Origin: an uncultured Pelagibacteraceae bacterium
Lineage (GTDB): Bacteria; Pseudomonadota; Alphaproteobacteria; Pelagibacterales; Pelagibacteraceae
Assembly: GCA_902634485.1 (NCBI GenBank)
Contig: CACPKA010000002.1
Coordinates: 17,169 to 81,168 of the forward strand
Length of the DNA: 64,000 nucleotides
Reading direction: 5' to 3'
How positions within the stretch are numbered: position 1 is the first letter of the stretch; every line of letters starts with the position of its first letter. Under the pieces are notes generated by a model. That model saw nothing but the letters and a program-made list of their open reading frames with translations, was not told the DNA's origin and ran no database searches. The translations under genes and the position numbers were made by a program. Shown here in pieces: positions 702 to 22,516 of the stretch.

Positions 702-736
702 ATTTTACTTCCTTTTTTTTGTTATATTAATGAAAA

Positions 737-767: not shown

Positions 768-792
768 ATCGCACTTTTTGTCGCAGGTTGTA

Positions 793-2690: not shown

Positions 2691-2705
2691 AAGTTAATAT
2701 AAACT

Positions 2706-3308: not shown

Positions 3309-3386
3309 GCCGTGCTTTTATATATATAAATCGTTATTTTTAAAATATTTATTATAATCATATATATGTTACATAATTACACATGT

Positions 3387-3854: not shown

Positions 3855-4228
3855 TGTCTGAAAAACAAAAAAATGTCTTAGGAGAAGAGTTAGAAGAATG
3901 TTCTAAAGATCCTTTAACAGGTTGGTTTAGAGACGGTTGTTGTAATACAGATGAAAATGATCATGGATTACATACAGTTTGTGTAAAAGTAAATAATGAA
4001 TTTTTGGAATGGTGTAAGGAAGCAGGTAATGATTTAATAACGCCTCACCCTGAATTTGGATTTCCAGGACTTAAGGATGGAGATAATTGGTGTGTATGCG
4101 CAGGATGGGTTGCTAGAGCAATTGATGCTGGCAAAGGATGTTCTGTTTATTTAAAAAAAACTCACGAAAATACTCTTAAAGTTGTTCCTATAGAAAAATT
4201 AAAAAAATTAGCTATAGATCTTTCTTAA
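3851..4228 (+). CDS. DUF2237 family protein
   Basis: 'LEECSKDPLTGWFRDGCCNTDENDHGLHTVC' ... 'GDNWCVCAGWVARA'; overlaps hisI stop. Confidence 0.85.
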   Translation: MMSEKQKNVLGEELEECSKDPLTGWFRDGCCNTDENDHGLHTVCVKVNNEFLEWCKEAGNDLITPHPEFGFPGLKDGDNWCVCAGWVARAIDAGKGCSVYLKKTHENTLKVVPIEKLKKLAIDLS

Positions 4229-5848
4229 TTACATATTGCCGTATTTAGGACCTCCTCCTCCTTCAGGAGTAACCCAATTAATATTTTGTGAAGGTTCTTT
4301 AATATCACAAGTTTTGCAGTGAATACAATTTTGAGAATTAATTACAAACTTTTTTAAATTATTTTCTACCTGAATTTCATAAACTCCTACAGGGCAATAT
4401 CTTTGCGCAGGTTCATCAAATTTTTCAAGTGTATAACTTATAGGTAGATTGTGATCTTTTAATTTTAAATGTACAGGTTGATTATCGGTATGGTTAGTTC
4501 CAGTAAGATATACTGAACTAGTTTTATCAAAAGTTATAATATTGTCTGGTTTTGGATATTCTATTTTAGGCATTTCATTTGAAGGTTTTAAAGATTCATG
4601 ATCAGCATGTTTGTGTTTAAGGGTAAATGGTAATTTTCCTCTAAATAAAATTTGATCTATGCCTGTAAAAATTATTCCTAATATTAAACCCCAGTTAAAA
4701 CTTGGTTTGACATTTCTTGCAGCGTATAGCTCTTTATAAACCCAGCTTTTTTTAAATTTATCCTCATAAGAAGATAAACTTTTATTTTCTTTTAAATTTT
4801 CAATTATTGTTTCAGCAGCTATCATTCCACTTTTCATTGCAGTATGGGACCCTTTAATTTTCGGCATATTTAATGTACCTGCATCACAACCAACTAATAA
4901 TGCACCCGGCATATACATTTTTGGCAAACTTTGTAAACCTCCTTCTATAAGAGCTCTAGCTCCGTAAGAAATTCTTTTTCCACCTTCAATCATTTTTTTA
5001 ATTGCTGGATGAGTTTTAAATCTTTGAAACTCGTCAAATGGTGACAGATGAGGATTTTTATAATCTAAACCTATTACATAGCCTAAAAAAACCTGCTTAT
5101 TTTCTGCATGATAAATAAAGCTTCCTCCATAAGTATTATTATCTAATGGCCAACCCACCGTATGCATTGCCAGTCCTTCTTCATGTTTTTCATCATTAAT
5201 TTCCCATATTTCTTTAAAACCTATTCCGTATTGCTGAGGATCTTTTGCTTTGTTTAATTCAAATTTATTTATCAGCTGTTTTCCTAAATGCCCTCTACAT
5301 CCTTCTGCAAATACAGTTACTTTCGCATGCAATTCCATGCCTGGTTCAAAACTATCTTTCTTATTTCCTTCTTTATCTAAACCCATATCTTGAGTTGCAA
5401 CTCCTTTAACTGAACCATCTTCGTTATATAAAATTTCACTTGCAGGAAAACCTGGAAATATTTCTACACCTAGACTTTCAGCCTGTTCAGCTAACCATCT
5501 GCATAAATTGGCTAAACTAATTATATAGTTTTTATGATTTTGCTGAACTTTAGGAAGTAACCAAGTGGGCCAACTCAATGATTTTGTTTTTCCTAAAAAA
5601 AGAAATTTTTCTTTAGTAATTTTAGTTTTAATTGGAGCATTTAATTCTTTCCAGTTAGGAATTAATTCATCTAAGGCTTTTGTTTCAAAAACATTGCCTG
5701 ACAATATATGTGCACCTACTTCAGATGCTTTTTCTAGAAGGCAGACATTAATATCTCGATTCAACTGTTTTAACTTAATAGCAGTTGAAAGACCTGATGG
5801 TCCGCCCCCTACGATGACTACATCGTATTCCATCACTTCTCTGGACAT
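4229..5848 (-). CDS. Electron transfer flavoprotein-ubiquinone oxidoreductase
   Basis: FAD motif 'DVVIVGGGPSGLSTAIKL', C-terminal Fe-S 'CIHCKTCDIKEPSQNINWVTPEGGGGPKYGNM'. Confidence 0.97.
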   Translation of the reverse strand: MSREVMEYDVVIVGGGPSGLSTAIKLKQLNRDINVCLLEKASEVGAHILSGNVFETKALDELIPNWKELNAPIKTKITKEKFLFLGKTKSLSWPTWLLPKVQQNHKNYIISLANLCRWLAEQAESLGVEIFPGFPASEILYNEDGSVKGVATQDMGLDKEGNKKDSFEPGMELHAKVTVFAEGCRGHLGKQLINKFELNKAKDPQQYGIGFKEIWEINDEKHEEGLAMHTVGWPLDNNTYGGSFIYHAENKQVFLGYVIGLDYKNPHLSPFDEFQRFKTHPAIKKMIEGGKRISYGARALIEGGLQSLPKMYMPGALLVGCDAGTLNMPKIKGSHTAMKSGMIAAETIIENLKENKSLSSYEDKFKKSWVYKELYAARNVKPSFNWGLILGIIFTGIDQILFRGKLPFTLKHKHADHESLKPSNEMPKIEYPKPDNIITFDKTSSVYLTGTNHTDNQPVHLKLKDHNLPISYTLEKFDEPAQRYCPVGVYEIQVENNLKKFVINSQNCIHCKTCDIKEPSQNINWVTPEGGGGPKYGNM

Positions 5849-5872
5849 AATATTATTTTTTTACAGTATTTG

Positions 5873-6826
5873 TTATTTTTGTATAGTGTTTAATTTGTTC
5901 AATTCTTCTAAAAATTGGGGAAGAGCTTCAAACAAATCAGCTTCTAAGCCATAATCTGCAACGCTAAAAATTGGTGCTTCACCATCTTTGTTAATAGCGA
6001 CAATAATTTTGCTTTCTTTCATTCCTGCTAAATGCTGAATAGCTCCTGAAATTCCAACAGCAATATATAAATCTGGGACAACAACCTTTCCTGTTTGTCC
6101 CACTTGATGATCATTAGTTATATACCCCGCATCAACAGCTGCTCGTGATGCTCCAATTGCAGCATTTAGTTTATCTGCAATGGCAGTAATTAATTTAAAA
6201 TTGTCTCCACTGCCCATTCCTCTACCTCCAGAAATTACAACTCTAGCAGTTCCAAGCTCAGGTCTATCTGATTTAACTTCTTCTCTTTTTATAAACTTAG
6301 TTAAATCTGAAGTTTCACCTTTTTCAACTTTTACAATTTCAGCGGAACCTCCGCTTGTTGCCGCTGGATCAAAAGATGTTGGTCTAATCGTTATACATTT
6401 TTTTGTATCTGTGCTTTTTACAGTAGCAAATGCATTTCCTGCATAAATGGGTCTTAAAAAAGTATCTGTTGAAATTACTTGAATTATATCACTCACTTGA
6501 GATGTATCTAATAGAGCTGCAATTCTTGGCATTAGATTTTTACCAAATGTATTAGCTGAACAAACAATATGTGAATAATTGTCAGAATTTTTTATTACAG
6601 CTGGTGTAAAATTCTCAGCTAAATAATTTTCATAAATTGCATCATCAACTAGGATTATTTTTTTTACATTAGGTACTTCAGAAATAGATTTTGCTACTGA
6701 TTCACATAAATGTCCAATTACTAGAACATGTAAATCTTGATCAATCTGAGATGCAGCTGTAATCGCATTTAAAGTAAATGGTTTAACCTCTTTGTTGTTA
6801 TGTTCTGCTATTAAAAGTACTGACAT
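5873..6826 (-). CDS. etfA: Electron transfer flavoprotein alpha subunit
   Basis: 'RVVISGGRGMGSGDNFKLI', 'VGQTGKVVVPDLYIAVGISGAIQHLAGM'. Confidence 0.97.
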   Translation of the reverse strand: MSVLLIAEHNNKEVKPFTLNAITAASQIDQDLHVLVIGHLCESVAKSISEVPNVKKIILVDDAIYENYLAENFTPAVIKNSDNYSHIVCSANTFGKNLMPRIAALLDTSQVSDIIQVISTDTFLRPIYAGNAFATVKSTDTKKCITIRPTSFDPAATSGGSAEIVKVEKGETSDLTKFIKREEVKSDRPELGTARVVISGGRGMGSGDNFKLITAIADKLNAAIGASRAAVDAGYITNDHQVGQTGKVVVPDLYIAVGISGAIQHLAGMKESKIIVAINKDGEAPIFSVADYGLEADLFEALPQFLEELNKLNTIQK

Positions 6827-7575
6827 TATATTACTTTTGCCTCATTTTTTAATTTTTGAACTAACTCTTCAACACTTGCAACCTTAATACCCGCTTTTCT
6901 CTTTGGTGGTTCTTCGACTTTAATTTGTTCTATTCTTGGTTTTGTATCAACTCCTAAATCAGAGGCATTAATTTGTTCTAAGGGTTTTTTCTTTGCCTTC
7001 ATTATGTTTGGTAATGAAGCATATCTTGGTTCATTTAATCTTAGATCGCATGTTACTATTGAAGGTATATTTGTCTCAATAGTCTCTAAACCTTCGTCAA
7101 CCTCTCTTGTAACTTCTAAAGATTTTTCTTTAACTTCTATTTTTGATGCAAATGTTGCTTGAGGCCAGTTAAGTAATGCTGCTAGCATTTGACCAGTTTG
7201 ATTACAATCATCATCTATAGCTTGTTTTCCCATAAAAACTAAATCTGGTTTTTCTTTTTCCACAATTTTTAGTAAAATTTTTGAAACTGCTAAAGGTTCA
7301 ATTATTCCTTCTACCTTTACATGAATTCCTCTATCGGCTCCTACAGCTAAAGCTTTTCTTACAGTTTCTTGTGCTTTATCTTCTCCAATTGTAACTGCAA
7401 CCACTTCTTTGGCTTTGCCAGATTCTTTTATTTTAACAGCTTCTTCAATTGCATTATCATCTGGAGGATTGGTTGACATTTTAACATTGTCAGTAACAAC
7501 ACCTGTATTATCCTCTTTAACTCTAATTTGAACGTTGTAATCAATTACTCTTTTTACTGCTACTAATATTTTCAT
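6826..7575 (-). CDS. etfB: Electron transfer flavoprotein beta subunit
   Basis: '[18 protein letters not shown]', '[22 protein letters not shown]', '[24 protein letters not shown]'. Confidence 0.97.
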
Positions 7576-10007
7576 TATGCTCTTAACAATTTATTTTCTG
7601 GGTCGTACGGACTTTCATCCAATATAGTAGCGTCGTGCATTTTTCCTAAAATATCAATTTTTAATTTTTGTCCTGTTGTCGCAAGTTCAGGTTTTATCAT
7701 TCCTAATGCTATTGATTTATTTAGTCTAAAACCAAAATCTCCTCCTGTCGCCCTACCAACAACTTTATCATTTTCATAAATAGGATTGTTACCAAGAACA
7801 TCAGCATCTGTTACATTGTGAATTTCCATAGTTACTAATTTGTTTGAAAATCCTTTTTCTCTCCATTTATTTAAAGCATCTAAACCAATAAATTTACCTT
7901 TATTAGGATGTATAAATCTTTCTAATCCTGACTCGTAAGGTGAATATTCAATAGACAACTCTGTTCCAACTAGCTTATATGATTTTTCAACACGCAAACT
8001 ATTCATTGCTCTTATTCCGAATGGTTTTAACCCTAAATCTTTTCCATGATCCATTAATTTATCAAATATATGATTTTGATATTCTAAAGGGTGGTGAATT
8101 TCCCAACCTAGCTCTCCAACAAAATTTACTCTTATAGCTGTGCAAGGGGCATATCCAATATCTACTTTTTTAGAGCTGAGCCATTTAAAATTTTCGTTTG
8201 AAAAATCATCTTTTGAAACTTTATTCATTAATTCTCTAGCTTTGGGTCCTGCAACCACCAAAACTCCTACAGAATTTGTTAAATTTTCAAATTGAACTGA
8301 TCCATCTTTTGGCATCCATTTTAAAATCCAATCGTGATCGAGCCTTTGAAAAGCACCCGCTGATACTAAATAAAAACTATCTTCAGACTCTTTCATAATA
8401 GTAAATTCAGAATGCACTCCTCCTTTTGTATTTAAAGCATGACATAAGTTTACTCTTCCAATTTTTTTAGGGAGTTTGTTTGCAACTAAATAATCAAGAA
8501 ATTCTTCTGCTTTTGGGCCTTTAATTCTACATTTTGCAAATGCAGTCATATCTAATAGACCAACATTTTCTTTAACATTTTTACATTCTTTTTCAACTGC
8601 TTTAAACCACTTTGATCTTCTAAATGACCAATCATCTTTTTGTTCCATTCCGTCAGTTGCAAAAAAATTTGCTCTCTCCCATCCAAATTTTTGTCCAAAG
8701 ACAGCACCTAATTTTTTCATTCTATCGTAACAAGGAGCTGTTCTCAGTGGTCTAGCAGCTTCTCTTTCTTCGTCAGGATAATGTATAATAAAAACATTTC
8801 TATAAGCCTCTTCATTTTTTTCTTTTAAGTAAGATTTAGAACAATAATCTCCATATCTTCTAGGTTCAACTCCAAGCATATCTACGGTTGGTTCTCCATC
8901 TACAATCCATTCTGCAAGTTGCCAACCAGCTCCTCCTGCAGCTGTAATACCAAAACTGTGACCTTCGTTAATCCAAAAATTTTTTAAACCCCAAGCTGGT
9001 CCAACAATTGGATTTCCATCTGGTGTATAACAAATTGCTCCATTATAAACTTTCTTTACACCCACTTCACCAAAAGCTGGTACACGATGAATAGCACCTT
9101 CTATATGAGGTCCCAATCTTTCTAAATCTTCTTGAAATAATTCATACTCTGAGTCTTTTGAAGGTCCATCTAAATAACAGCAAGGTGCACCATCTTCATA
9201 AGGACCAAGTATCAATCCTCCAGCTTCTTCTCTCATATACCATCTGCTATCACTATCTCTTAAAACTCCCATTTCGGGAAGCCCATCTTTTTTTCTTTTT
9301 TGAATTTCTGGATGTGGTTCGGTTACAATATATTGATGTTCAACAGGTATAACTGGTATGTCTAGACCAACCATTTTTCCTGTTTGTCTTGCAAAGTTTC
9401 CTGAACAAGATACAACGTGTTCGCATTCTATAGTTCCTTTATCTGTTTCAACTACCCATCCACCTTTAGTTTGTTTAATTCCTTTGACTGTTGTGTTTCT
9501 ATAAATTTCTGCTCCTCTATTTCTTGCACCTGTTGCAAGCGCTTGTGTTAAATCAGCTGGCTGAATATACCCATCTTCAGGATGTTGGATTGCTCCAATT
9601 AAATCTGAAGTATTACACAAAGGCCAAATTTCTTTTACTTGTTCAGGAGTTAAAAATTTATACTTAACCCCTATGGTTTGGGCAACTCCGGCATACTGAT
9701 GATACTCATCCATTCTATCTTTTGTACTTGCAAGTCTAATATTTGATACAATGCTAAAACCTACATTTTTCCCAGTTTCTTCTTCTAAAGTTTTATAGAA
9801 ATCAACTGCATATTTATGAAGCTGTCCCACCGAATAGCTCATATTAAAAAGTGGCAACAATCCTGCTGCGTGCCAAGTAGAGCCCGATGTAAGTTCTTTT
9901 CTTTCTACAAGAACAACATCAGACCATCCTTTTTTTGCTAAATGATAGAGCATACTTACTCCAACGACTCCACCTCCAACAACAACAACTTTAGATTTTG
10001 ATTTCAT
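7575..10007 (-). CDS. Dimethylglycine/sarcosine dehydrogenase-like FAD oxidoreductase fused to GcvT aminomethyltransferase domain
   Basis: N-terminal DAO domain '[45 protein letters not shown]'; C-terminal GcvT domain '...[13 protein letters not shown]...', '[13 protein letters not shown]'. Confidence 0.9.
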
Positions 10008-10059
10008 AATGCGATTCCTACAAGATTTTATAGATAATTAAAGTTTAATTTTAACGTTA

Positions 10060-10557
10060 TCAAATTGAAGAACCTAAAGAAATAGGGTTAGAAACCATTG
10101 TAGTCAACCAACAGTCTTTTAAAGGTCCGTCTTCATAATATTTTTCTACAACCCATCTAAACTTATAATAATTCTTATCTTTTCCAAGAATTGTTACTTC
10201 AAAACCAAGCTTGTTATTGGATCTAGAAATCTCAACTATTTTGTTATCAATATGATTTAATAACATTTTATAACTTTTGCTTTTAAGCATATTAATAAAT
10301 TTAGGAAGTGGTCCCGTATATTTTTTATTCGAAGGGTGGGCAAATTCCCAAGTTTGTTTAATACCATTGTCTATATTTGGTTCATCATTTTTTTTTAAAC
10401 TATTTAATTGTATCAAAATAACTTGATCTGGCTCAATTACCGTACTTGGTTTTATTAAATCTGCTTTCGCAGTAGTTACAATAAACAACACCGCCATAAA
10501 CAAGATAACAATTAAATAAATCAAACTATACAAAGAGTATTTAAAAAATTTCTTCAT
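10060..10557 (-). CDS. DUF4864-like protein with N-terminal TM/signal segment
   Basis: 'FAHPSNKKYTGPLPKFINMLKSKSYKMLLNH' pattern. Confidence 0.6.
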   Translation of the reverse strand: MKKFFKYSLYSLIYLIVILFMAVLFIVTTAKADLIKPSTVIEPDQVILIQLNSLKKNDEPNIDNGIKQTWEFAHPSNKKYTGPLPKFINMLKSKSYKMLLNHIDNKIVEISRSNNKLGFEVTILGKDKNYYKFRWVVEKYYEDGPLKDCWLTTMVSNPISLGSSI

Positions 10558-11207
10558 AAACGTATAAAACTACTTTTAATTGCTTTTTGCCATTTTTTTT
10601 TATCCTCTGCGTCAAATATTAATTCGATATCACTTTCAGACAAAGTCCATCTTTCCATTTCTATTTCACCATCTAGTTGTTCAGCATTCCAGGCTGAAAG
10701 CCCTAATACAACTAAACTTTTTCTTGGTCCTTTTTTTTCTGCTATTTTAACTAAAGTTTCTAAATCATTACTTGTAGATAATTTATTATATTGTTTAGTA
10801 CTATAATTTTTATAGTCTTTTGAGTGTAAAATTAATATTTTATTTTTATCTACCGGTCCTCCCCAATATATAGGAATTTGAAAATCATAAAGTTCTTTTT
10901 TATTTATTGAACTGTCTTCAACTTTGCTTATTAAAGAGCCAAGTCTAATTTTTCCTAGTGGTTTATTTACAACAATGCCCAATGCACCTCCTTCGTCGTG
11001 CTCTAACATTAATATTACAGTTTTTTCAAATCTAGAGTCTCTAATTTTTCTTGTAGCTATTAATAAAAAATCTTCAACACTATCATAATGTTTTCCTTTA
11101 AAATAATCTTTTGGAAATTTATAATGTTTTGGTAGATCTATTGCTTTAGAAGAATACGGTATAGTTAATATTGTTATAAAAAAAAAAAAAATTGAAATTT
11201 TTTTCAT
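10554..11207 (-). CDS. YqgE/AlgH family protein (DUF179) with N-terminal signal peptide
   Basis: 'FEKTVILMLEHDEGGALGIVVNKPLGKIRLGSLI', 'IYWGGPVDKNKILILHS', 'LGLSAWNAEQLDGEI'. Confidence 0.9.
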   Translation of the reverse strand: MKKISIFFFFITILTIPYSSKAIDLPKHYKFPKDYFKGKHYDSVEDFLLIATRKIRDSRFEKTVILMLEHDEGGALGIVVNKPLGKIRLGSLISKVEDSSINKKELYDFQIPIYWGGPVDKNKILILHSKDYKNYSTKQYNKLSTSNDLETLVKIAEKKGPRKSLVVLGLSAWNAEQLDGEIEMERWTLSESDIELIFDAEDKKKWQKAIKSSFIRL

Positions 11208-11773
11208 ATATTTGAAGCTGTTTGTCTTACATCTTCTAAAAATTTTTTTCTTTTTTCATCACTTACAAATGGTACAGCAAAAAATCTTTTATAAATAACA
11301 TCTGTTATTCCACATATATTAAAAACTCCTCTTCGCAGTCTTTTAGTTGGCATATTTAAAAAAAAAGTTCTAATGGCAAACTGTGGAGATCCATAAGTGC
11401 AAAAAACAATCGCTTTCTTCCCTTTTAAATTGCCTATAGGATATCCATAATTTCCAAATAATTTTTTAAATTTAAATGCCCATGGTGGTGCTAAAACTTT
11501 ATCAATCCAACCCTCAAGAATTGCTGGCATTCTAAAATTCCATATTGGGGCAATTAAAACAATTATATGAGAATTTTCTATTCGTTTTTGGTGATCAAGC
11601 ACTATTTCGTCTGGTTTCTCACCCGCAAAAACTGGATTAAATTTTTCTTTATAAAGATCTACAAGATCTACCTGGTGTCCTTTTTCCTCTACTGTTTTAA
11701 TAAAAGTGTCTCTAATTGAGGCATTAAAAGATTTTTCGTTGTAATGTCCATAAACTAAAAAAATTTTTTTCAT
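11204..11773 (-). CDS. NAD(P)H dehydrogenase (quinone)-like flavodoxin-fold protein
   Basis: 'KKIFLVYGHYNEKSFNASIRDTF', 'IVLIAPIWNFRMPAILEGWIDKVL'. Confidence 0.85.
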   Translation of the reverse strand: MKKIFLVYGHYNEKSFNASIRDTFIKTVEEKGHQVDLVDLYKEKFNPVFAGEKPDEIVLDHQKRIENSHIIVLIAPIWNFRMPAILEGWIDKVLAPPWAFKFKKLFGNYGYPIGNLKGKKAIVFCTYGSPQFAIRTFFLNMPTKRLRRGVFNICGITDVIYKRFFAVPFVSDEKRKKFLEDVRQTASNI

Positions 11774-12178
11774 TTAATTGTATTTTGAAGCTATATAAAA
11801 ACCAATAAACATTGATAATACAAAAATAATTGAGCTAATATTTAATAAAGCTAAAGAAGTAATTGCAGGTCCCGGACACAAACCTACCAATCCCCAACCT
11901 GAACCAAAAAAAATAGAACCAATAATTAGTTTTTTATCTATTTCTTTATTTGTTGGAATTGAAAAACTTGGTAAAAATAATGGTTTATTATTGTTTTTAA
12001 ACAAGTGAAATATTGGTGTTGAGATAATAAGCGCCCCAATCATTACAAAAGCAAGTGAGGGGTCCCAATCCCTAAAAATATTTAAAAAACCTAATACTTT
12101 TTCTGGGTTAATCATTTCAGAAATTACCAAACCAATACCAAAAATTATTCCACAAACTAGTGACACTATCTTGCTCAT
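11774..12178 (-). CDS. YeeE/YedE-type membrane protein (second half)
   Basis: 'GIIFGIGLVISEMINPEKVLGFLNIFRDWDPSLAFVMIGAL', 'GSGWGLVGLCPGPAI'. Confidence 0.88.
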   Translation of the reverse strand: MSKIVSLVCGIIFGIGLVISEMINPEKVLGFLNIFRDWDPSLAFVMIGALIISTPIFHLFKNNNKPLFLPSFSIPTNKEIDKKLIIGSIFFGSGWGLVGLCPGPAITSLALLNISSIIFVLSMFIGFYIASKYN

Positions 12179-12594
12179 AATACTCCTGTGATTGAAACAG
12201 TTAATATTCCAATTAACATAAAAGTTATTGTTGCAATGATTGATCTTAATGAAAAACGACTAATTCCACTAATTCCATGTCCGCTTGTGCAACCATTACT
12301 TAATCTTGTCCCAAAACCAACCAGGGCCCCAGCTGCAACTAATAAAATTATAGAATTAGAAATTGATATATTGATTTCCTTACCAAAAATTAGGTTATAA
12401 AATACAGGTCCTAGTATTAATCCAAACAAAAATAAAAAATTATCAACCCGTCTATCTTTTGAAACTATAACGCTACTTGCTATGCCACTAATACCAATCA
12501 GACGACCATTAAGTGTAAAAAATAATGCCACTGACAATCCTATTAATAGACCACCTGATAATGCAGATATTGGAGTAAAATTTACTATATTCAT
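12175..12594 (-). CDS. YeeE/YedE-type membrane protein (first half)
   Basis: 'ALSGGLLIGLSVALFFTLNGRLIGISGIAS', 'GFGTRLSNGCTSGHGISGISRFSLRSIIAT'. Confidence 0.88.
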   Translation of the reverse strand: MNIVNFTPISALSGGLLIGLSVALFFTLNGRLIGISGIASSVIVSKDRRVDNFLFLFGLILGPVFYNLIFGKEINISISNSIILLVAAGALVGFGTRLSNGCTSGHGISGISRFSLRSIIATITFMLIGILTVSITGVL

Positions 12595-13170
12595 CTAATT
12601 CCAAATTTTATTTAAAATTCTTTCCCTTCCACATGCTTTTTTATATCTCAAATAATTCGCAAATTTTTCTATATAAAAATTTTGATGCTTTTCTTCAGCT
12701 TTATAAAATTTATCAAATTTTCTGACATATGTTACTATTTTTTTATCAAATTTTTTTTCTAATTTTATTATAGATTTTTCTATTAAATCCTTTTGTTTTT
12801 GGCTTTGATAAAATGCAACAGATCTATAACTATAACCTTTATCACAAAATTGGCCATATTCATCAAAAGGATCTATATTTCTCCAAAAATGATTTAATAG
12901 TTCAATAAAATTAGTTTTATTTTTATCAAAAATAATTTCTACTACTTCAAAATGTCCAGTATTTTCATAAGTTACTTCCTCATAAGTTGGGTTTGCTGTT
13001 GTTCCTCCCGAATAACCAGAAATTACTTCTAAAACACCTTTTTTTTTTTCAAAAGACTCTTCCATACACCAAAAACATCCGCCTGCAAAATATACTTTTC
13101 CTAGATCTTGGCTAAATACCGATGTTTGTAAAAACAAAAATAAAACCACTAACGTATATTTTTTTGTCAT
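12595..13170 (-). CDS. msrA: Peptide-methionine (S)-S-oxide reductase
   Basis: 'VYFAGGCFWCMEESFEKKKGVLEVISGYSGG' and 'HQNFYIE'. Confidence 0.95.
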   Translation of the reverse strand: MTKKYTLVVLFLFLQTSVFSQDLGKVYFAGGCFWCMEESFEKKKGVLEVISGYSGGTTANPTYEEVTYENTGHFEVVEIIFDKNKTNFIELLNHFWRNIDPFDEYGQFCDKGYSYRSVAFYQSQKQKDLIEKSIIKLEKKFDKKIVTYVRKFDKFYKAEEKHQNFYIEKFANYLRYKKACGRERILNKIWN

Positions 13171-13171
13171 T

Positions 13172-13732
13172 TTAGTTCCAATTTACCCTAAACATTGCTT
13201 CATTTCTTCTAAGCATAGGCAATGTAAAAGGACTATTGTAAGTGGCTCTTATTGGAGGACTTACAATCAAAATGTTATCTTTTTTTAATTCTCTTTCCAA
13301 ATACTCTTTATGTTTAATGAAATTTTTGTCTGATGCTCTTCCTGAGTATCTAATTACCGCATAGTAACCACCTTTAATAATAACTATTTCTAAATCGTTT
13401 CTTAATGGATTTGGCACATTATCTTTATTAAATTTTAATGGTAAATAAAATTGCATGGTCATGTTTCCATCTTTTTGCATTTGAGTAACAGGTGTTGTCA
13501 TTTTAATTTCTTCATTTGTCTTATTATTTCCTGATATGTAATCAAATAACATTCGAAAACTATTATTTTGATTAGTTTTAACAACTTGAACTGCTAATCG
13601 ATCAGAATATTTTCTTATTTCATAAATATCGTTAGATTCTACTATATTATATTTAGATTCCTCATTTGCCATAGCACTAGAATATGAAAAAAGCGTTATA
13701 GAGTAAAATAGAAATAATATGATTTTTTTCAC
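13172..13732 (-). CDS. SOUL heme-binding family protein
   Basis: 'YNIVESNDIYEIRKYSDRLAVQV', 'IKMTTPVTQ', 'RNEAMFRVNWN'. Confidence 0.85.
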   Translation of the reverse strand: MKKIILFLFYSITLFSYSSAMANEESKYNIVESNDIYEIRKYSDRLAVQVVKTNQNNSFRMLFDYISGNNKTNEEIKMTTPVTQMQKDGNMTMQFYLPLKFNKDNVPNPLRNDLEIVIIKGGYYAVIRYSGRASDKNFIKHKEYLERELKKDNILIVSPPIRATYNSPFTLPMLRRNEAMFRVNWN

Positions 13733-14199
13733 TAATTTTTAAGTACAGGAAAAACAGGGTTAGATTTTTGAAATAATTTCTGGTATTCTTGTTTAATACA
13801 TTTGTTCTCTATGTATTGAATATTAGCTTCTTCAGAAATTTTTTTAGCCTCCTCACTTTGAATTCCATACTGTAACCATAAAGTTTTAGCTCCTAGTTTA
13901 ACAGCTTCTCTAGCAAAAACAGGTGTTTCTTTTGATGGTCGAAATACATCAACTATATCTACTTTTTCAGAAATATTATCTAAACTTTCAACTACAATTT
14001 CTCCATTTATTACTTCTCCTTTGGCAAAAGGATTTACTGGTATTACTTTATAGCCAAAATCTTGCATATATTTCATAACAACATTAGCTGGCTTTCTTTT
14101 TAAATTTTTAGGATCTTCTCCTTTTTTTTCTGAACTTACTCCAATCATTGCAATTATTTTAGAATTTTTAAGAATTTCTTTTATTTGCTCATCTTTCAT
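13732..14199 (-). CDS. CoA-binding domain protein (YccU-like)
   Basis: 'IAMIGVSSEKKGEDPKNLKRKPANVVMKYMQDFGYKVIPVNPFAKGEVINGE', 'DIVDVFRPSKETP'. Confidence 0.9.
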   Translation of the reverse strand: MKDEQIKEILKNSKIIAMIGVSSEKKGEDPKNLKRKPANVVMKYMQDFGYKVIPVNPFAKGEVINGEIVVESLDNISEKVDIVDVFRPSKETPVFAREAVKLGAKTLWLQYGIQSEEAKKISEEANIQYIENKCIKQEYQKLFQKSNPVFPVLKN

Positions 14200-14969
14200 T
14201 TATTTTTCCACTTAGGATTTCTTTTTTGTAAAAATGCAGATATACCCTCATGAGCATCAACTGACATCATGTTTAAAGTCATCATTCTACTTGTGTATGC
14301 ATAAGCTTTTCTTAATGGCATTTCTAGCTGTTTATAAAATGCTTGCTTTCCAATTTTTATTGTTAAGTTTGATTTAGAAGCAATTATTTTAGCTATTTTT
14401 AAAACTTCTTTATTAAGTTTTGATTTTGAATAATAATCATTAATTAAACCAATCTCTTTAGCAAAATTAGCTTTTATTGGTTCGCCAGTTAAAAGCATTT
14501 TCATCATTCTTTTCCTATGAATTTTTCTACTTACTGCAACCATAGGAGTACTGCAAAATAAACCAATATTTACACCTGGTGTAGCAAACATTGCATCACT
14601 CGTGCTGTAAGCTAAATCACAACTTGCTACTAACTGACATCCAGCCGCATAAGCTGCTCCATGAACTTTTGCAATTACTGGTTTTCTACCTTCTACAATT
14701 TGGAGCATTACTGTTGAACAAAGGTTGAATAATTTTAAATATTTCGATCTCTCTTTTAATCCTCTTACTTCTTTTAGATTATGACCTGCGCTAAATCCCT
14801 TTCCTGCTCCTTCTAAAATTATTACTTTTGTAGAATTATCTTTGTCTAGTTTTTTAAAAGTATTTAAAAGTGAATTTAGTGTTTTAAAAGATAACGAATT
14901 ATAAGTTTTAGGGTCATTAATAATTACTTTTTTAACTCCAGAGCCTAAGTTTTTTATTGAAATGTTCAT
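14196..14969 (-). CDS. Enoyl-CoA hydratase/isomerase family protein
   Basis: 'VIILEGAGKGFSAGHNLKEV', 'KPVIAKVHGAAYAAGCQLVASCDLAYST'. Confidence 0.92.
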   Translation of the reverse strand: MNISIKNLGSGVKKVIINDPKTYNSLSFKTLNSLLNTFKKLDKDNSTKVIILEGAGKGFSAGHNLKEVRGLKERSKYLKLFNLCSTVMLQIVEGRKPVIAKVHGAAYAAGCQLVASCDLAYSTSDAMFATPGVNIGLFCSTPMVAVSRKIHRKRMMKMLLTGEPIKANFAKEIGLINDYYSKSKLNKEVLKIAKIIASKSNLTIKIGKQAFYKQLEMPLRKAYAYTSRMMTLNMMSVDAHEGISAFLQKRNPKWKNK

Positions 14970-14974
14970 ATATT

Positions 14975-15334
14975 TTATAATTTTTCTCCATTAAAAACTG
15001 GAATGTTCTTATATTCAAAAGTATCCACATTGTCGATACAGGCCACATTATATTCATAATTTTCAGGATTAGTATAAGATCTATGATGAGTGTAAATGCC
15101 ACAGTTTTTGCAGAAGAAATGTTCGGCCAGATGTTTCTTACCAAATTTATAAACTGTTAATTGATCTTGACCTTTTTTAATTTTTAAATTTTCTAATTTA
15201 ATTTTAGCCATTATATAACCTCTTCTTTTGCATAAAGAACAATTACATCTTACTAGTTCCTCAAATCCATTTTCTAAATTAAGTTCAATTTCAACTTTTT
15301 TACAATGACAGGTTAATATTTCTATTTTGCTCAA
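14975..15334 (-). CDS. GFA/CENP-V-type zinc protein
   Basis: Cys pattern 'CHCKKVEIEL...RCNCSLCKRRG...HFFCKNCGIYTHH'. Confidence 0.9.
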   Translation of the reverse strand: MSKIEILTCHCKKVEIELNLENGFEELVRCNCSLCKRRGYIMAKIKLENLKIKKGQDQLTVYKFGKKHLAEHFFCKNCGIYTHHRSYTNPENYEYNVACIDNVDTFEYKNIPVFNGEKL

Positions 15335-15336
15335 AA

Positions 15337-16275
15337 CTATTTTCTTATTTTTAATTCGTATTTTTTTCTCATTTTTTGTAAATTTAGCAAATACTCATCT
15401 CTAATTTTTGCAATTGTGGCAACAGATTTTCCTTTAGCTTGCTTTCTAGTGCCTGATATTACTCTATTTGATAGCTTTTTTGAAAGTTTTGGAGCTTTTA
15501 ACTTAGTCCATGGAAGTTTTAAAGCAGGACCAAATTGTTTTAGCATGTGCTTCATGCCAGCACTTCCACCAGCTAAATGAAATGTAAGAAAAGTACCCAT
15601 CAATGACCATCTCATTCCTGGTCCATCTTCAATAGCTCTATCCAAATCTTTAGTTGATGCATAACCTTCATTTACAATATGTAATGCCTCTCTCCAAAGT
15701 GCTTCTTGCAATCTATCAGATAGAAAGCCTGGCAATTCTTTTTTTAACATTATTGGATTCATCGAAATAGACTCATAAAATTTCTTAGCTTTGTTTAAAG
15801 TTTTAATGCTTGTTTTTTTTCCTGGAACTATTTCAACTCCTGGAAGCATATAAACAGGATTGAAAGGATGCGCAATTATAGCTCGAGATGGATTTTTACA
15901 TTTAGAATAAATTTTTGATGGTAAAAGACCTGAAGAACTTGATGAAATGATTGCATTATGTTTAGAGTATTTTCCTATAATTTCCATTAATTTAGTTTTT
16001 AATTTATAATTTTCTGGGGCACACTCTTGAATAAAATCAGCATCTTTTAAAGCCTCTGATAAAGAAGTAACGTAGCTAAAGTTTTTAAGTTTTATTTTTT
16101 TTTTTTTAAATAATTTTTTTACGAATGGCGATGCTCTTTTAATTTCAGTTATTACTTTTTTTTTAAGTTTTGAGTCTTTATCATAAACAATTACTTTTTG
16201 GTTATGTGCTAAAAGTCTTACAACCCAACCAGATCCTATTACTCCAGCACCAATTACAGCAATTTTTTTTATCAT
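15337..16275 (-). CDS. 3-hydroxyacyl-CoA dehydrogenase superfamily; L-carnitine dehydrogenase-like
   Basis: NAD motif 'IGAGVIGSGWV'; 'SSSSGLLPSKIY', 'HPFNPVYMLPGVEIVPG', 'PGFLSDRLQEALWREALHIVNEG', 'GPGMRWSLMGTFLTFHLAGGSAGMKHMLKQFGPALKLPWTKL'. Confidence 0.78.
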   Translation of the reverse strand: MIKKIAVIGAGVIGSGWVVRLLAHNQKVIVYDKDSKLKKKVITEIKRASPFVKKLFKKKKIKLKNFSYVTSLSEALKDADFIQECAPENYKLKTKLMEIIGKYSKHNAIISSSSSGLLPSKIYSKCKNPSRAIIAHPFNPVYMLPGVEIVPGKKTSIKTLNKAKKFYESISMNPIMLKKELPGFLSDRLQEALWREALHIVNEGYASTKDLDRAIEDGPGMRWSLMGTFLTFHLAGGSAGMKHMLKQFGPALKLPWTKLKAPKLSKKLSNRVISGTRKQAKGKSVATIAKIRDEYLLNLQKMRKKYELKIRK

Positions 16276-17127
16276 TTAATCAGCTAATCCATCTGATCTA
16301 GCTACATTTCTCTCTAAGTGAATTGGTAATACTTTTCCATATATTGCTTTTGAATGTTCGGGTGTATTTACTCTCCACGGATCCATTACATAAGCAGGTA
16401 TACACATATATCTTGAAAGTTTGCCTTCAATTTTTGTAACTCTGTGCAATGTAAAACGTCCTTTAAATATTTGTAAATCTCCTGGCTCTAATTTTAACTG
16501 ACGCACTCTTGTTCGATCTCCATTTATTACTTTTTTAACTTCTTCAAAATTTTCATTTCCTGGTGCACGAATATTCGGACAGTACTCAAATATTCCTCCT
16601 TTTTCGGGTTTTTGTATCATTAAACTTAAAGTAAATTCACAACTATCAAAATGCCAAGGAAGGACTCCTTCTGGCTTCATAACATTGTATGCATGACAAG
16701 CTAAAGGATCTGCCCATCTATAAATTGGAGAAACACCTAAACACGCAGAAACAAATCTTAAAAGTTCTTCTGTTTCGTAAAGATATTTCATTTCAGAATT
16801 TTTTGGGAAACAATCTGAATTTAAATATCCGTTATATCTACTCATAAAAGTTCTTTTTGGATGATCTTTTGGTAGTTTTGGGTCATCTTCGGCATAAAGA
16901 TAAGGATTTATGCTTTCTTTTGACATGTAAACTTCTCCTAATTGTTTTTTTAATTCTAAATTCATTATTTCTAAAGACTTAGGTAAGATAAAATTAGGTA
17001 TTGTAGAACAACTAAATTGATCTAGTTCTTCTTTACATTTTTTAATTAAATTTTTAACTGTTGGAGAGTTTAAGTCATAAATTGGATACTTTTCTAAATC
17101 TACTATTGACTTAAGTCTTTCGATCAC
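16276..17127 (-). CDS. 2OG-Fe(II) oxygenase (phytanoyl-CoA dioxygenase-like)
   Basis: HxD in 'PWHFDSCEFTLSLMIQ', distal His/Arg 'TLHRVTKIEGKLSRYMCIPAYV'. Confidence 0.75.
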   Translation of the reverse strand: MIERLKSIVDLEKYPIYDLNSPTVKNLIKKCKEELDQFSCSTIPNFILPKSLEIMNLELKKQLGEVYMSKESINPYLYAEDDPKLPKDHPKRTFMSRYNGYLNSDCFPKNSEMKYLYETEELLRFVSACLGVSPIYRWADPLACHAYNVMKPEGVLPWHFDSCEFTLSLMIQKPEKGGIFEYCPNIRAPGNENFEEVKKVINGDRTRVRQLKLEPGDLQIFKGRFTLHRVTKIEGKLSRYMCIPAYVMDPWRVNTPEHSKAIYGKVLPIHLERNVARSDGLAD

Positions 17128-17498
17128 TTCAATTCTCCATCCTCTCTCATTTTTGCTCTAATTTTAGTTGCTGAAATTTTTTGTATTTCTTCAGGCATAA
17201 CTATCTCTTCTATTTTATAACCAACTCCTCTTCCGTAGCAAATGTTGGTTATATTGGGCACTAAAACAATTTTAAATCTTCCTTCGTATTTTGGATTTAA
17301 TCTTTCTTCTATTTTTTTCTTTACCGTTTCAAAATCAAAAGGATTATCATCAACTCCTTGCACATCTCTAATCTGAATACAAACTTGACCAGTTTTTTTT
17401 ATAATTTCTTCAAATAAAGCGTAATGGCCATCATGAAAAGGCTGCCATCTTCCTAGCATTTGTGCTGTTGGTTTTTTATTATCCCATTGATAGGACAT
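17124..17498 (-). CDS. HIGH-superfamily nucleotidyltransferase (cytidylyl/adenylyltransferase-like)
   Basis: 'GRWQPFHDGHYALFEEII' (HxGH-like) and C-terminal 'ISATKIR'. Confidence 0.88.
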   Translation of the reverse strand: MSYQWDNKKPTAQMLGRWQPFHDGHYALFEEIIKKTGQVCIQIRDVQGVDDNPFDFETVKKKIEERLNPKYEGRFKIVLVPNITNICYGRGVGYKIEEIVMPEEIQKISATKIRAKMREDGELK

Positions 17499-17905
17499 TA
17501 TTTTAAATCCTCCGCAATTTTAGATGCCCACACTTTAGCATCTTGTGTTGTAACATGAAAATTAAATTTTTCAGGTTTTACAAACATTTGGTTTGTGTCT
17601 TCAAATCTTCCTTCTTTAATAGTATCCACCCAAACAATATAGTCTGCAGGAAATAGCTTTCTAGCTTCTGGTGTTGGACAAATAAAATCAGCTATAACAA
17701 TATTTCCTTCCTTTTTTAATTTAATTGCTGCTTCAGACATTCTTTTTGCCTGCCTTTTTCTACCTTCCGCAGAAAAATCCCAATCATTGGCTGTTTTTCT
17801 AATTTCATCCGCATTTAATCTTTTTGATTTAATTAATGTAGCTAACTCGTTTGCTAAAGTTGTTTTCCCTGCACCAGGCAATCCCATAATTAAAATTACT
17901 TTCAT
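17498..17905 (-). CDS. APS-kinase-like P-loop kinase
   Basis: Walker A 'GLPGAGKTT'; 'LNADEIRKTANDWDFSAEGRKRQAKRMSEAAIKLKKEGNIVIADFICPTPEARKLF' mirrors the APS kinase layout. Confidence 0.85.
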   Translation of the reverse strand: MKVILIMGLPGAGKTTLANELATLIKSKRLNADEIRKTANDWDFSAEGRKRQAKRMSEAAIKLKKEGNIVIADFICPTPEARKLFPADYIVWVDTIKEGRFEDTNQMFVKPEKFNFHVTTQDAKVWASKIAEDLK

Positions 17906-19140
17906 TAAATACTTTCTAAAGGATGATGGGACATAAGTTCAAGATTATTTTCACCAACTAAATATTGTTGTTCAAGTTTAACCCCTTCTTTACCACCTAC
18001 TTTTCCAATATAGCTTTCCAACGTGATGGTCATATTTTTTTCAAAATAACCTTCTCTTTGTCCTCCATCAGTTGGATATTTTATTTGAGGCCACTCATCA
18101 CACAAACCAATACCATGAAGCATGCATGAATATCTATTTCCATAATATTGCTCAGGTAATTTCCAAGATTTTTCCGTAAATTCTAAAAAAGATGTTCCTT
18201 GTTTAATTAATCTACAATTATGATTTATTTGTTCCATTGCCATAGAATATAATTTTTTTTGACTATCACTAAATTTATGACCTTCAACAAATGTTCTTGA
18301 TATATCTGCACAGTACCCATATGGACCAACCATATCGGTATCAAAAGAAACAATTTCTCCTTTTTGTATTACTTTATTGCCACTTTCTTGCATCCATGGA
18401 TTTGTTCTTTCGCCAGAAGATAAAATTCTACATTCAATCCATTCGCCTCCATGTTCAATATTAGTTTTATGTAAAATTGACCAAAGCTCATCTTCAGTCA
18501 TGCCAGCTTTTAATTCGTTACGCATTTTAGCTACACCAATTTCAGCTACATCTATTGCAGCTTTCATACATTTTAATTCTTCGGGAGATTTAATAACTCT
18601 TGCTTGTTCTAAAATTAATTTAGCATCTACAACTTTAATATCTGCTTTATTTAAAGCTGTTACTGCAGGTCCATTTAAAACATCTATAGCTATTTTTTTA
18701 TTTTTAAAATAATTATTTGATAAGTCTTTAATTTCATTAACCCACTTTTTTAATTGTGAACTTGCTTGATCTCCATTACTAAAGTAATCCCAGGTTATTG
18801 ATGGTCTTATTTCGTCTATTAAATTTAAATGGCTAGATAATCCTTCGCAATTAAAATATTCATATAAAATTGTAGGTCCATTAACTGGCACAAAACAATA
18901 ACGAGTTAAGTTATGCATATTATAAACACTCATGTTTACAGTGTCTAAAGCATATCTAATATTTACGGGATCAAATAACATACAAGCTTCTAAATTATTT
19001 TTTTCTAACTCTTTTTTAACCCTGTCTAGTCTATAAGATCTAAGTTTATCAAAATTAATTTCATCTTCACTTAATCTTTTTTTAGTAATAAAATTTGAAT
19101 TAGACTTTGAATCTGGGTTTATCTTTCTTTTAAATCTCAT
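17905..19140 (-). CDS. M24 (pita-bread) family protein, DddP-like (putative DMSP lyase or relative)
   Basis: 'MLFDPVNIRYALDTVNM', 'NIEHGGEWIECRILSSGERTNPWMQESG', 'SFDTDMVGPYGYCADISRTF', 'YSCMLHGIGLCDEWPQIKYP', 'LESYIGKVGGKEGVKLEQQ'. Confidence 0.75.
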   Translation of the reverse strand: MRFKRKINPDSKSNSNFITKKRLSEDEINFDKLRSYRLDRVKKELEKNNLEACMLFDPVNIRYALDTVNMSVYNMHNLTRYCFVPVNGPTILYEYFNCEGLSSHLNLIDEIRPSITWDYFSNGDQASSQLKKWVNEIKDLSNNYFKNKKIAIDVLNGPAVTALNKADIKVVDAKLILEQARVIKSPEELKCMKAAIDVAEIGVAKMRNELKAGMTEDELWSILHKTNIEHGGEWIECRILSSGERTNPWMQESGNKVIQKGEIVSFDTDMVGPYGYCADISRTFVEGHKFSDSQKKLYSMAMEQINHNCRLIKQGTSFLEFTEKSWKLPEQYYGNRYSCMLHGIGLCDEWPQIKYPTDGGQREGYFEKNMTITLESYIGKVGGKEGVKLEQQYLVGENNLELMSHHPLESI

Positions 19141-19141
19141 A

Positions 19142-20335
19142 TCAAACTATATTCGTTGCTACCCATTTGTGAAAATGATGCGTAGGATTATCCATAATTG
19201 GTGAAAAGTTACCTCCATTATATGATGGAGAGTTTCTACCTTCTTGCATGCCTTCAATAATATGTACATCTTCTATCTGCACATCTCTCCATAATTTATG
19301 ATTTTGTTTTCTTAAAAATTTATATTTTTTTGAATTAGCGGCTTTATCACCCACATAATATATTTCCATATGTTCAATAGTGTATTTATGGTTAACCGGC
19401 TCTAACCAATAAGCATAATAATGATCTTTGTGTACCCCTAACATTACGTTTGGAAATAATGCAACATATTCTGCTATATGTTCTTTATCTTTGGGCCAAT
19501 TAGGAAAACAAGGAAATTTTTCTTTTCCTTTAAGTCTTGGATTGTAAACAGTTGTTCCTTGACCAGCAAAGCGATTTGGTAATCCTTGTATGTGGTAATG
19601 ATCTTCGATTTTTGAATAAGAATTTAATCCTGGGTGCACCCATGGTAAGTGATAACTCTCACAATAATTTTCAATTGCAAACTTCCAATTACAATTAGCT
19701 CTTAATTGAAAATATCCATAATCATTAGAATGTGAAATTAGTTTTCTATCTTTCTCTGGCCAAAATTTCTTCCATCTATCGCTAAGTGGTTTAATATATT
19801 TCGCAAATGGAATTTCGTTATTACCTATATTTATCATTATTAAATCTAACCAGACGGCTGATCTAATTTCTTTTAAACCACTATCTGATTTATTAAAATC
19901 TTTTGTAGTATGTTTGTTCATACCTCCAATATGTGGAGTAGCAATTAAATTGCCTTCTGTACTATAAGCCCATGAATGATAAGGACATCTTATTGCATTT
20001 TTAATATTGCATGGTTTTTGTAATATTTTATAGCCTCGATGGCTACATACATTATGAAAAACTCTTATTTTATTTTTTTTATCTCTTAAAATTATAATTG
20101 GCAAATCGAGCAAATTAAAAGGTTTTGCATCACCTTTGTTTGGTACTGAGCTTGCTACTCCAACAACTATCCATTTATCTTCGAACAGTTTTTTTCTTTC
20201 AATTTTTGTATATTCTTGGCTTGTATAGCATTCGTTTGGTAAACCGTGTGATTCTTCTATTGGTTTACTAACAACATCCAGCTTTGCCTTGCTGATTAAC
20301 TTATATACCTCTCCATTGCTCTTGCCATTAATCAT
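19142..20335 (-). CDS. Rieske-type ring-hydroxylating/demethylating oxygenase alpha subunit
   Basis: Rieske 'CSHRGYKILQKPCNIKNAIRCPYHSW'; mononuclear Fe motif 'NYCESYHLPWVHPGL'. Track start is 20371 (MLIKAWPVVRFYM); internal ATG at 20335 (MINGKSNGE) preferred. Confidence 0.92.
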   Translation of the reverse strand: MINGKSNGEVYKLISKAKLDVVSKPIEESHGLPNECYTSQEYTKIERKKLFEDKWIVVGVASSVPNKGDAKPFNLLDLPIIILRDKKNKIRVFHNVCSHRGYKILQKPCNIKNAIRCPYHSWAYSTEGNLIATPHIGGMNKHTTKDFNKSDSGLKEIRSAVWLDLIMINIGNNEIPFAKYIKPLSDRWKKFWPEKDRKLISHSNDYGYFQLRANCNWKFAIENYCESYHLPWVHPGLNSYSKIEDHYHIQGLPNRFAGQGTTVYNPRLKGKEKFPCFPNWPKDKEHIAEYVALFPNVMLGVHKDHYYAYWLEPVNHKYTIEHMEIYYVGDKAANSKKYKFLRKQNHKLWRDVQIEDVHIIEGMQEGRNSPSYNGGNFSPIMDNPTHHFHKWVATNIV

Positions 20336-20391
20336 ATAAAATCTTACCACTGGCCAAGCTTTTATCAACACATTTCAAATAGTCTCATGTA

Positions 20392-21165
20392 ATGAATTTT
20401 GTAGACAGAATTTTTAAAATAGATAATTATCCTGCAATGAATTTTTCAATAGAAATAGGTCCCCATACTGACCTTGAAACGTTACCTACAATTAAGGACG
20501 TTTATATTACAATGTTGCCTGGAGGAGATTATACAGAAACTGCACAAAAAGCTGGTGATTTAGTAAAAAAAGGTTTTAATCCTATCCCCCATTTTCCAGC
20601 TAGATCAATTGTAGATGAGGCTCAACTAAATGACTATGTTTCTCGCTGTAAAAACCTTGGGGTTAAACAAGCTTTAGTAATTGGAGGTAGTAGAGAACCT
20701 CTAGGAATATTTGATAGTTCTATACAGATTTTAGAGACAGGGTATTTCGAAGGCTTAAAGATAGGAATCGCTGGACATCCTGAGGGGAGTCCTGATATAT
20801 CCGATTCAAATTTAGAAAAAGCTATGAAAGATAAAAAGCCTTATGCTGATTATATAGTAACTCAATGGTTGCTAGATTCTCAAAAAATCATAGATTTTAT
20901 TTCTAAACAATCTATACCAGTTCATGTTGGAATTACTGGGCCACTTAAAATAACTAGCCTAATTAAATTTGCTAATATTGTTGGTGCAAAAAATTCCTTA
21001 AATTTTCTTAAATCTAATTTTAGTAAGGCACTAGATTTAATGAAACCTAAAGACCCTAATGAATTAATTGGGAAAGTAAAAGATTTTTCGAAAAACTTCC
21101 ACATTTATACATTCGGCGGCTTGAAGGAAACTAACAAGTGGTTGAAGGAGAATAATTATGTCTAA
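20392..21165 (+). CDS. Methylenetetrahydrofolate reductase-like protein
   Basis: 'MNFSIEIGPHTDLETLPTIKDVYITMLPGGDYTETAQKAGDLVKKGFNPIPHFPARSI', 'QALVIGGSRE', 'PVHVGITGPLKI'. Confidence 0.85.
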   Translation: MNFVDRIFKIDNYPAMNFSIEIGPHTDLETLPTIKDVYITMLPGGDYTETAQKAGDLVKKGFNPIPHFPARSIVDEAQLNDYVSRCKNLGVKQALVIGGSREPLGIFDSSIQILETGYFEGLKIGIAGHPEGSPDISDSNLEKAMKDKKPYADYIVTQWLLDSQKIIDFISKQSIPVHVGITGPLKITSLIKFANIVGAKNSLNFLKSNFSKALDLMKPKDPNELIGKVKDFSKNFHIYTFGGLKETNKWLKENNYV

Positions 21166-22516
21166 TGAGTTTGATTATACTAAGTTAAAACAGACTACTT
21201 CAGTAGATCAATCTGATCGTGAAGTCCCATATAACTTAAGACAAAGCGGTCCAACTAAAGTTGAAATGTTAATATCGACTAGGGTACGAAAATCACCTTA
21301 TTGGCATTTATCAATGCAAGCCGGATGTTGGAGAGCGACAGTATATAATCGTATTTATCATCCAAGAGGATATGTAAAACCAGAAGATGGTGGAGCAATG
21401 GTTGAGTATGATGCAATTGTAAATCATGTAACTATGTGGAACGTAGCAGTTGAAAGACAAATAAGAGTCAAAGGTCCCGATGCGGAAAAATTTACTGATT
21501 ATGTAATAACAAGAGATGCAACTAAAATTTCACCAATGAGAGCCAGATATGTAATATTATGCAATGCTTATGGCGGGGTTTTAAATGACCCAATTCTTCT
21601 TAGAATTTCAAAAGATGAGTTTTGGTTTTCTTTGTCAGATTCTGATATTGGAATGTATCTTCAGGGTGTTAACTCTGATGGAAGATTTAATTGTACAATA
21701 GAGGAAATTGATGCGTGTCCAGTACAAATACAAGGGCCAAAATCTAAAGCTTTAATGAAAGATCTTTGTGGAGATCAATTTGATTTAGACAACATGCCTT
21801 TTTATGGACTAGCAGAAGCTAAAATTGGAGGAAGAAGTTGCGTTATTTCTCAATCTGGTTTTTCTGGCGAAGCTGGCTACGAAATATATTTAAGAAATGC
21901 AACTTTGTATGCTGATGATATGTGGAATGCTGTCCTTGAAGCAGGAAAAAAACATAATTTGATGGTTATAGCTCCTGCACACCATAGAAGAATACAAGCA
22001 GGAATTCTCTCATGGGGACAAGATATGGATCAACAACATAATCCTTTTCAATGTAACTTAGGTTATCAAGTTTCATTATCTGGTAAAGGTGAATGGAATA
22101 AAAAAACTGACTATATAGGTAAAGCTGTTTTAGAAAAAATGGGAGCTGAAATAAAAGCTGGTAAAAAACCTTATAAACTTCAATTAGTGGGTTTTGAACT
22201 TGGTGGAAAACCAATAGAAGATTATGCTCCTGATTTTTGGCTTATTTCAAATGCTGATGGTGGAGATCCAGTTGGTTTCATTACATCACCTTGGTATCAT
22301 CCTGAGAAGAAAAAAAATATAGCTATGGGATATGTTCCATTTGATGGAACCTTAAATGCAAACGGTTTTCCTAAAGGAAAAGTGGGTACTAAATATAAAA
22401 TTCACTTACCAGAAAAATATTCTGAAACTCCTGGTGAGCCTGTAGATGCTGTTGTTGTAGATATACCTTTTAAAGAGTCTTATAACGCTAATACAAGAGA
22501 AGTTGTAAAAGGATAA
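21158..22516 (+). CDS. GcvT-family tetrahydrofolate-dependent demethylase, DmdA-like
   Basis: 'MWNVAVERQIRVKGPDAEKFTDYVITRDATKISPMRARYVILCNAYGGVLNDPILLRISKDEFWFSLSDSDI', 'QSGFSGEAGYEIYL'. Confidence 0.85.
   Translation: MSNEFDYTKLKQTTSVDQSDREVPYNLRQSGPTKVEMLISTRVRKSPYWHLSMQAGCWRATVYNRIYHPRGYVKPEDGGAMVEYDAIVNHVTMWNVAVERQIRVKGPDAEKFTDYVITRDATKISPMRARYVILCNAYGGVLNDPILLRISKDEFWFSLSDSDIGMYLQGVNSDGRFNCTIEEIDACPVQIQGPKSKALMKDLCGDQFDLDNMPFYGLAEAKIGGRSCVISQSGFSGEAGYEIYLRNATLYADDMWNAVLEAGKKHNLMVIAPAHHRRIQAGILSWGQDMDQQHNPFQCNLGYQVSLSGKGEWNKKTDYIGKAVLEKMGAEIKAGKKPYKLQLVGFELGGKPIEDYAPDFWLISNADGGDPVGFITSPWYHPEKKKNIAMGYVPFDGTLNANGFPKGKVGTKYKIHLPEKYSETPGEPVDAVVVDIPFKESYNANTREVVKG

Follow-up and report, generated by a model that had tools for sequence, protein, structure and literature searches.

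The operon around a dddP-like gene of SAR11

The window, a 64,000-nucleotide stretch of a Pelagibacteraceae genome that is 72.8% complete, carries a gene for a DddP-like M24 enzyme in a context of quaternary-ammonium (betaine) catabolism (Table 1). The gene is real and conserved; full-length copies, 69 to 91% identical, are present in dozens of Pelagibacteraceae genomes. It belongs to a run of six contiguous minus-strand genes that extends leftward from position 20371 with intergenic distances of −4 to +1 bp, in the order Rieske oxygenase, DddP-like protein, APS-kinase-like protein, nucleotidyltransferase-like protein, HalD-type 2OG oxygenase, and carnitine-dehydrogenase homolog.

Table 1 Features of the dddP-like locus, with positions counted from the first letter of the window.
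Feature	Position	Strand	Remarks
FAD-GcvT fusion demethylase	7575-10007	−	810 aa; DMGDH/sarcosine-oxidase-alpha-like
Enoyl-CoA hydratase family protein	14196-14969	−	PRK08139, over cut-off
GFA-family protein (glutathione-dependent formaldehyde-activating domain)	14975-15334	−	
L-Carnitine dehydrogenase homolog	15337-16275	−	NF005471, 353 bits, below cut-off of 414
HalD-family 2OG-Fe(II) oxygenase	16276-17127	−	HxD (HFD) facial triad, hydroxylase-type; strongest genomic association with the DddP-like gene
Nucleotidyltransferase-like small protein	17124-17498	−	124 aa
APS-kinase-like small P-loop protein	17498-17905	−	135 aa
DddP-like M24 enzyme, clade B	17905-19140	−	411 aa, ATG start; Tyr337/Asp348 pair and six carboxylate/His metal ligands
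Rieske non-heme oxygenase, alpha subunit	19142-20371	−	CntA is best PDB match; 1-bp gap to the DddP-like gene
Distant methylenetetrahydrofolate-reductase-like protein	20392-21165	+	Divergent
GcvT/DmdA-like folate-dependent methyltransferase	21158-22516	+	224 bits, against a DmdA cut-off of 410

The quaternary-amine Rieske oxygenases CntA and GbcA have Glu in place of Asp at the bridging position. The Rieske protein of the window has Glu there as well, its ENYCESYH segment aligning with DNYMECYH of the carnitine monooxygenase CntA; on the GbcA profile, it reaches 124 of 670 bits. The HalD Pfam domain was recognized in the 2OG oxygenase with 42 bits (cut-off, 26). Radical halogenases of the HalD/BesD family carry HxG/A for HxD, which lets halide bind the iron. 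The window protein shares the HalD domain with them but differs in its triad, which is HFD here and either HFD or HYD in every partner inspected, indicating a hydroxylase-type enzyme rather than a halogenase. The carnitine-dehydrogenase homolog would be expected to oxidize a β-hydroxy acid, and the GFA-family protein is consistent with formaldehyde arising from demethylation. The APS-kinase-like and nucleotidyltransferase-like genes are probably passengers outside the core pathway, since some other SAR11 groups lack them at the corresponding position. BKACE is encoded elsewhere in the genome; a complete carnitine route that includes it was rejected because it leaves the M24 enzyme without a role.

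The initial annotation had placed the DddP-like gene beside a Rieske oxygenase and a DmdA-like gene. Both neighbors are present, but the second falls below the DmdA cut-off (Table 1) and is not DmdA; a bona fide dmdA, scoring 558 bits, is found on a different contig. Together with the methylenetetrahydrofolate-reductase-like gene, it forms a plus-strand pair that looks like a folate methyl-transfer unit; in several SAR11 groups, the pair keeps company with the DddP-like and Rieske genes. The FAD-GcvT fusion family, represented elsewhere in the window, recurs near DddP-like genes of other bacteria.

Fold and active-site residues of the DddP-like protein

In a search of PDB sequences, the best matches were DddP chains (4rzy, 4s01, 4s00, and 4b28; E values of 1e-80 to 6e-76), and the first non-DddP match was aminopeptidase P 2zsg (E value of 1e-18). 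Identity to the DddP of Ruegeria lacuscaerulensis was 36%. An AlphaFold2 model of the protein (pLDDT of 78, pTM of 0.81) returned DddP as its top structural match, with a TM-score of 0.85 and an E value of about 1e-38. In fold and sequence, the protein is thus clearly DddP-like, sharing with DddP (NF043017; PDB 4RZY and 4B28) the M24 pita-bread fold and the GGEWIE and RTNPW core.

In the alignment, the DddP metal ligands D295, D297, D307, H371, E406, and E421 correspond to D267, D269, D279, H342, E375, and E390 of the query, and Tyr366 and Asp377 of DddP correspond to Y337 and D348. The initial annotation had matched the Asp ligands, the Tyr-His-Asp segment, and two Glu residues to DddP, and every one of these matches was correct; they do not, however, single out DddP. 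In an alignment of about 90 proteins, the six metal ligands and Tyr366 were kept in practically all, and among the other proteins of clade B, the group that holds the SAR11 proteins, Tyr366 was found in 51 of 51 and Asp377 in 40 of 51. These residues are therefore general to the DddP-like family, with exceptions for Asp377, and are not diagnostic of DddP. One clade B subgroup (L210, L216, L217, L220, L221, and L222) has Gly in place of Asp377 and keeps the metal ligands, so the same base is not usable by all DddP-like proteins.

The evidence for lyase chemistry fits hydrolase chemistry too, and a hydrolase akin to creatinase, ectoine hydrolase, or prolidase, which would cut an amide, amidine, or peptide to supply the hydroxylase and the demethylases with a methylated amino acid, is possible though improbable. 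The M24 family is mainly hydrolytic; creatinase and the ectoine hydrolase DoeA, which act on nitrogenous metabolites or osmolytes, were among the structural matches of the model, and Rhizobium relatives annotated as "Xaa-Pro peptidase family" lie beside genes of proline/hydroxyproline catabolism. The active site points elsewhere, in that the catalytic His of the HExP motif of peptidase 2zsg is replaced by Asp348, while Asp297, which is absent from methionine aminopeptidases (PMC4108388), is kept. Creatinase, DoeA, and prolidase share the pita-bread fold at only 14 to 21% identity in the fold search, with TM-scores below that to DddP (about 0.65 to 0.7 for prolidases, at E values of about 1e-20), and creatinase and prolidase matches were far weaker (about 1e-18 to 1e-21) than the match to DddP. 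DddP itself is without Val-Pro activity (review, PMC5395565). Residues and fold together disfavor an ordinary prolidase or creatinase. The initial annotation had named a firm placement with Xaa-Pro/creatinase enzymes as telling against its own proposal, and no such placement emerged: the model fits DddP better (TM-score of 0.85) than it fits prolidases (about 0.7), and Asp stands at the HExP His position.

Relationship to DddP

The curated cut-off for DddP is 600 bits (NCBIfam NF043017), and the DddP-like protein scored 345.3 bits (E value of 4.7e-103). Across the class Alphaproteobacteria, 82 of 385 genomes yielded DddP-family proteins, and just 12 of these exceeded 600 bits; the DddP-like group of Alphaproteobacteria is large and mostly not DddP. 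Its members in Rhizobium and Sinorhizobium, named "Xaa-Pro peptidase family protein," and on a Pseudomonas MPC6 plasmid are 39 to 48% identical to the query, and those clade B proteins that entered the alignment have the same set of active-site residues; the MPC6 plasmid copies are similar by search and lay outside the tree sampling. The neighbors of these relatives include betaine transporters, Rieske and MTTB proteins, HalD, and FrhB.

A quick tree resolved two clades, of which A contained 4RZY and B contained the SAR11 proteins. In a more careful tree, built without the own-genome M24 outgroup, whose branches were very long, the clade A branch with the solved DddP 4RZY had support of 100/99 and the DddP-like protein fell outside it; the SAR11 proteins and their sister group were joined with support of 100/99. 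Fungal and Oceanimonas DddPs were outside the sampling. Constraining SAR11, the sister group, and clade A to form one clade cost 31 log-likelihood units (p-AU of 0.018), a weak rejection of a group named after the first tree was seen, and we therefore regard it as moderate evidence. Trp95, which we take to be the sulfur-binding Trp of DddP, was present in 22 of 22 clade A proteins; all 17 SAR11 and sister-group proteins had Tyr or Phe instead, the aromatic character being kept. In DddP, the sulfur of DMSP is bound by one Trp and one Tyr (review, PMC5395565).

These results bear on whether the protein is a functional DMSP (and DMSOP) lyase, that is, a divergent DddP through which SAR11 could release DMS in addition to the DddK and DddQ route. 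The import systems of SAR11 accept both betaines and DMSP, and the protein has the complete set of DddP catalytic residues, so it may still cleave DMSP. Among solved folds, that of DddP is the closest by a wide margin, and a search for cupin DMSP lyases (PF16867) found none in the 72.8%-complete genome. A confirmed DMSP lyase of Fusarium shares only 32% identity with RdDddP (PMC4108388), so sequence distance alone, at the 36% seen here, is compatible with DMSP cleavage. Set against this are the score of 345 rather than 600 bits, the position outside the solved-DddP clade, the Tyr or Phe for Trp95, a neighborhood of betaine enzymes rather than DMSP/acrylate genes, and the wide occurrence of DddP-like relatives in soil rhizobia. 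On balance, we consider a DMSP lyase unlikely. The initial annotation had offered two possibilities, a true DMSP lyase and a sister enzyme acting on another onium substrate; the first has lost ground on these counts, and the second is favored.

Genomic company in SAR11 and other bacteria

Among 197 Pelagibacteraceae genomes, a HalD-type protein (at least 75% identity) was found in 32 of the 35 with the DddP-like gene and in 2 of the 162 without it (P value of 5e-31, which is optimistic because related genomes were counted as independent). Two of the three exceptions, which have the DddP-like gene without a close HalD protein, have more distant HalD homologs. The HalD and DddP-like genes are more than 100 kb apart in two genomes (G043 and G166) and on different contigs in two others (G127 and G152); since the co-occurrence persists in these four genomes without adjacency, linkage alone is no full explanation for it.

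Adjacency recurs in distant bacteria. Other Alphaproteobacteria had six HalD/DddP-like pairs that are direct neighbors on the same strand within 300 bp, against 0.1 expected, and a Pseudomonas plasmid carries HalD, DddP-like, and FrhB genes consecutively. Most clade B members lack a HalD neighbor, so the pairing may be limited to some subclades. In at least 8 genomes, a DddP-like gene scoring below 500 bits has an MTTB-family methyltransferase gene within 300 bp, against 0.42 expected. Other SAR11 clusters carry various combinations of an OpuA/ProW betaine transporter, BHMT, a FAD-GcvT demethylase, a class II aldolase, and an FrhB-like protein. Rhizobium relatives adjoin a Rieske oxygenase, a FAD-binding oxidoreductase, a betaine transporter, and hydroxyproline catabolism genes, and a Terrarubrum relative adjoins BMT, MTTB, and a mandelate-racemase-family gene. 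No single substrate fits all of these contexts, as some relatives lie with hydroxyproline genes and others with glycine-betaine genes. We found no description of M24 proteins in betaine or hydroxyproline-betaine operons in the open literature searched, which did not include the 2015 RlDddP structure paper of Wang and the 2016 SAR11 DddK paper of Sun.

Several neighborhoods had further features. A 766-aa autotransporter-domain protein is encoded inside an otherwise metabolic operon (L038:9665-11965), and unclassified open reading frames of similar size occupy the same place in L042, L044, and other SAR11 genomes. Five DddP-like genes lie in one 17-kb stretch of a 2.7-Mb alphaproteobacterial genome (L193 in G282, positions 1 to 14828), a local expansion of the family that also holds an MTTB gene and a mandelate-racemase-family gene. 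On a Paracoccus yeei plasmid (L241:7836-15312), the gene of a protein annotated as DddP has a mandelate racemase/muconate lactonizing enzyme gene and a hydantoinase pair as neighbors, company in which a DMSP lyase would not be expected.

That the DddP-like gene is unconnected with onium metabolism and merely shares a variable SAR11 genome island with its neighbors, some of which (the APS-kinase-like, nucleotidyltransferase, and autotransporter genes) look like unrelated passengers, is very improbable, because the association with HalD survives distance and the adjacency to betaine enzymes recurs in distant bacteria with statistical excess.

Proposed function of the DddP-like protein

We propose, with a probability of about one half, that the protein belongs to a sister clade of DddP and is a dimetal lyase with the M24 fold, which cleaves a carbon-heteroatom (or carbon-carbon) bond as part of a betaine catabolic operon and acts in sequence with the HalD-type 2OG hydroxylase. 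The combination of DddP-like parts, a hydroxylase partner, and demethylase company suggests such a betaine-type lyase, and the substrate is probably a nitrogen-containing osmolyte. From the gene, its residues, its clade, its operon, and the co-occurrence and adjacencies described above, we infer the substrate class, the order of the steps, and the bond broken.

For DddP, it has been proposed that the dimetal site holds the carboxylate, that Asp377 takes the alpha proton, and that DMS then leaves (PMC4108388, PMC5395565). By analogy, a betaine imported through an OpuA-type transporter would be hydroxylated by the HalD-type oxygenase and passed to the M24 enzyme, where its carboxylate would sit on the dimetal site and its onium group in an aromatic pocket that may be formed by Tyr73 and Tyr337. 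Asp348 would act as the base, giving an enediolate either through the expulsion of a beta group or through a retro-aldol break. The smaller betaine or methylated amine would then go to the neighboring demethylases (Rieske oxygenase, BHMT, and FAD-GcvT protein, with MTTB in other bacteria).

A more specific version of this proposal, which we offer as a long shot, is that the DddP-like M24 enzyme and its HalD-type hydroxylase partner make up an undescribed module in which N-trimethylated amino acids are hydroxylated in a first step and cleaved in a second. Nitrogen in quaternary form does not allow a PLP Schiff base, so in such a module a dimetal enolate enzyme would carry out the retro-aldol cleavage (or beta-elimination). 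The products would be glycine betaine or another small betaine, bound for the adjacent demethylases, and an aldehyde, bound for an aldehyde dehydrogenase; betaine-lipid head groups (homoserine betaine) are candidate substrates. Versions of the module would be common to SAR11, its sister group, other Alphaproteobacteria, and a Pseudomonas plasmid.

Implications for surveys of DddP and for SAR11

Among the bacterial genes for DMSP lyases, that of DddP is often described as the most abundant in seawater. A polar metagenome survey recruited DddP at an E value of 1e-30 and reported it in Pelagibacterales (PMC8520302); with an E value of 4.7e-103 on the NCBIfam DddP model, the DddP-like protein passes that threshold easily. 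A sediment survey, in which candidates were compared with ratified enzymes, found DddP prominent in Pseudomonas and Mesorhizobium (PMC7039863). Plasmids of Pseudomonas and Mesorhizobium carry DddP-like relatives with less than 60% identity to the query; the survey's own sequences need not be of clade B.

Should the clade lack DMSP lyase activity, DddP counts in surveys may in part measure the breakdown of betaines instead of the production of DMS; should it have the activity, SAR11 gains a further source of DMS. The DddP-like gene of the window should not be counted as a DMS-producing gene from its sequence alone. The pairing with HalD is a concrete lead to an uncharacterized osmolyte pathway in the most abundant bacterial group of the ocean.
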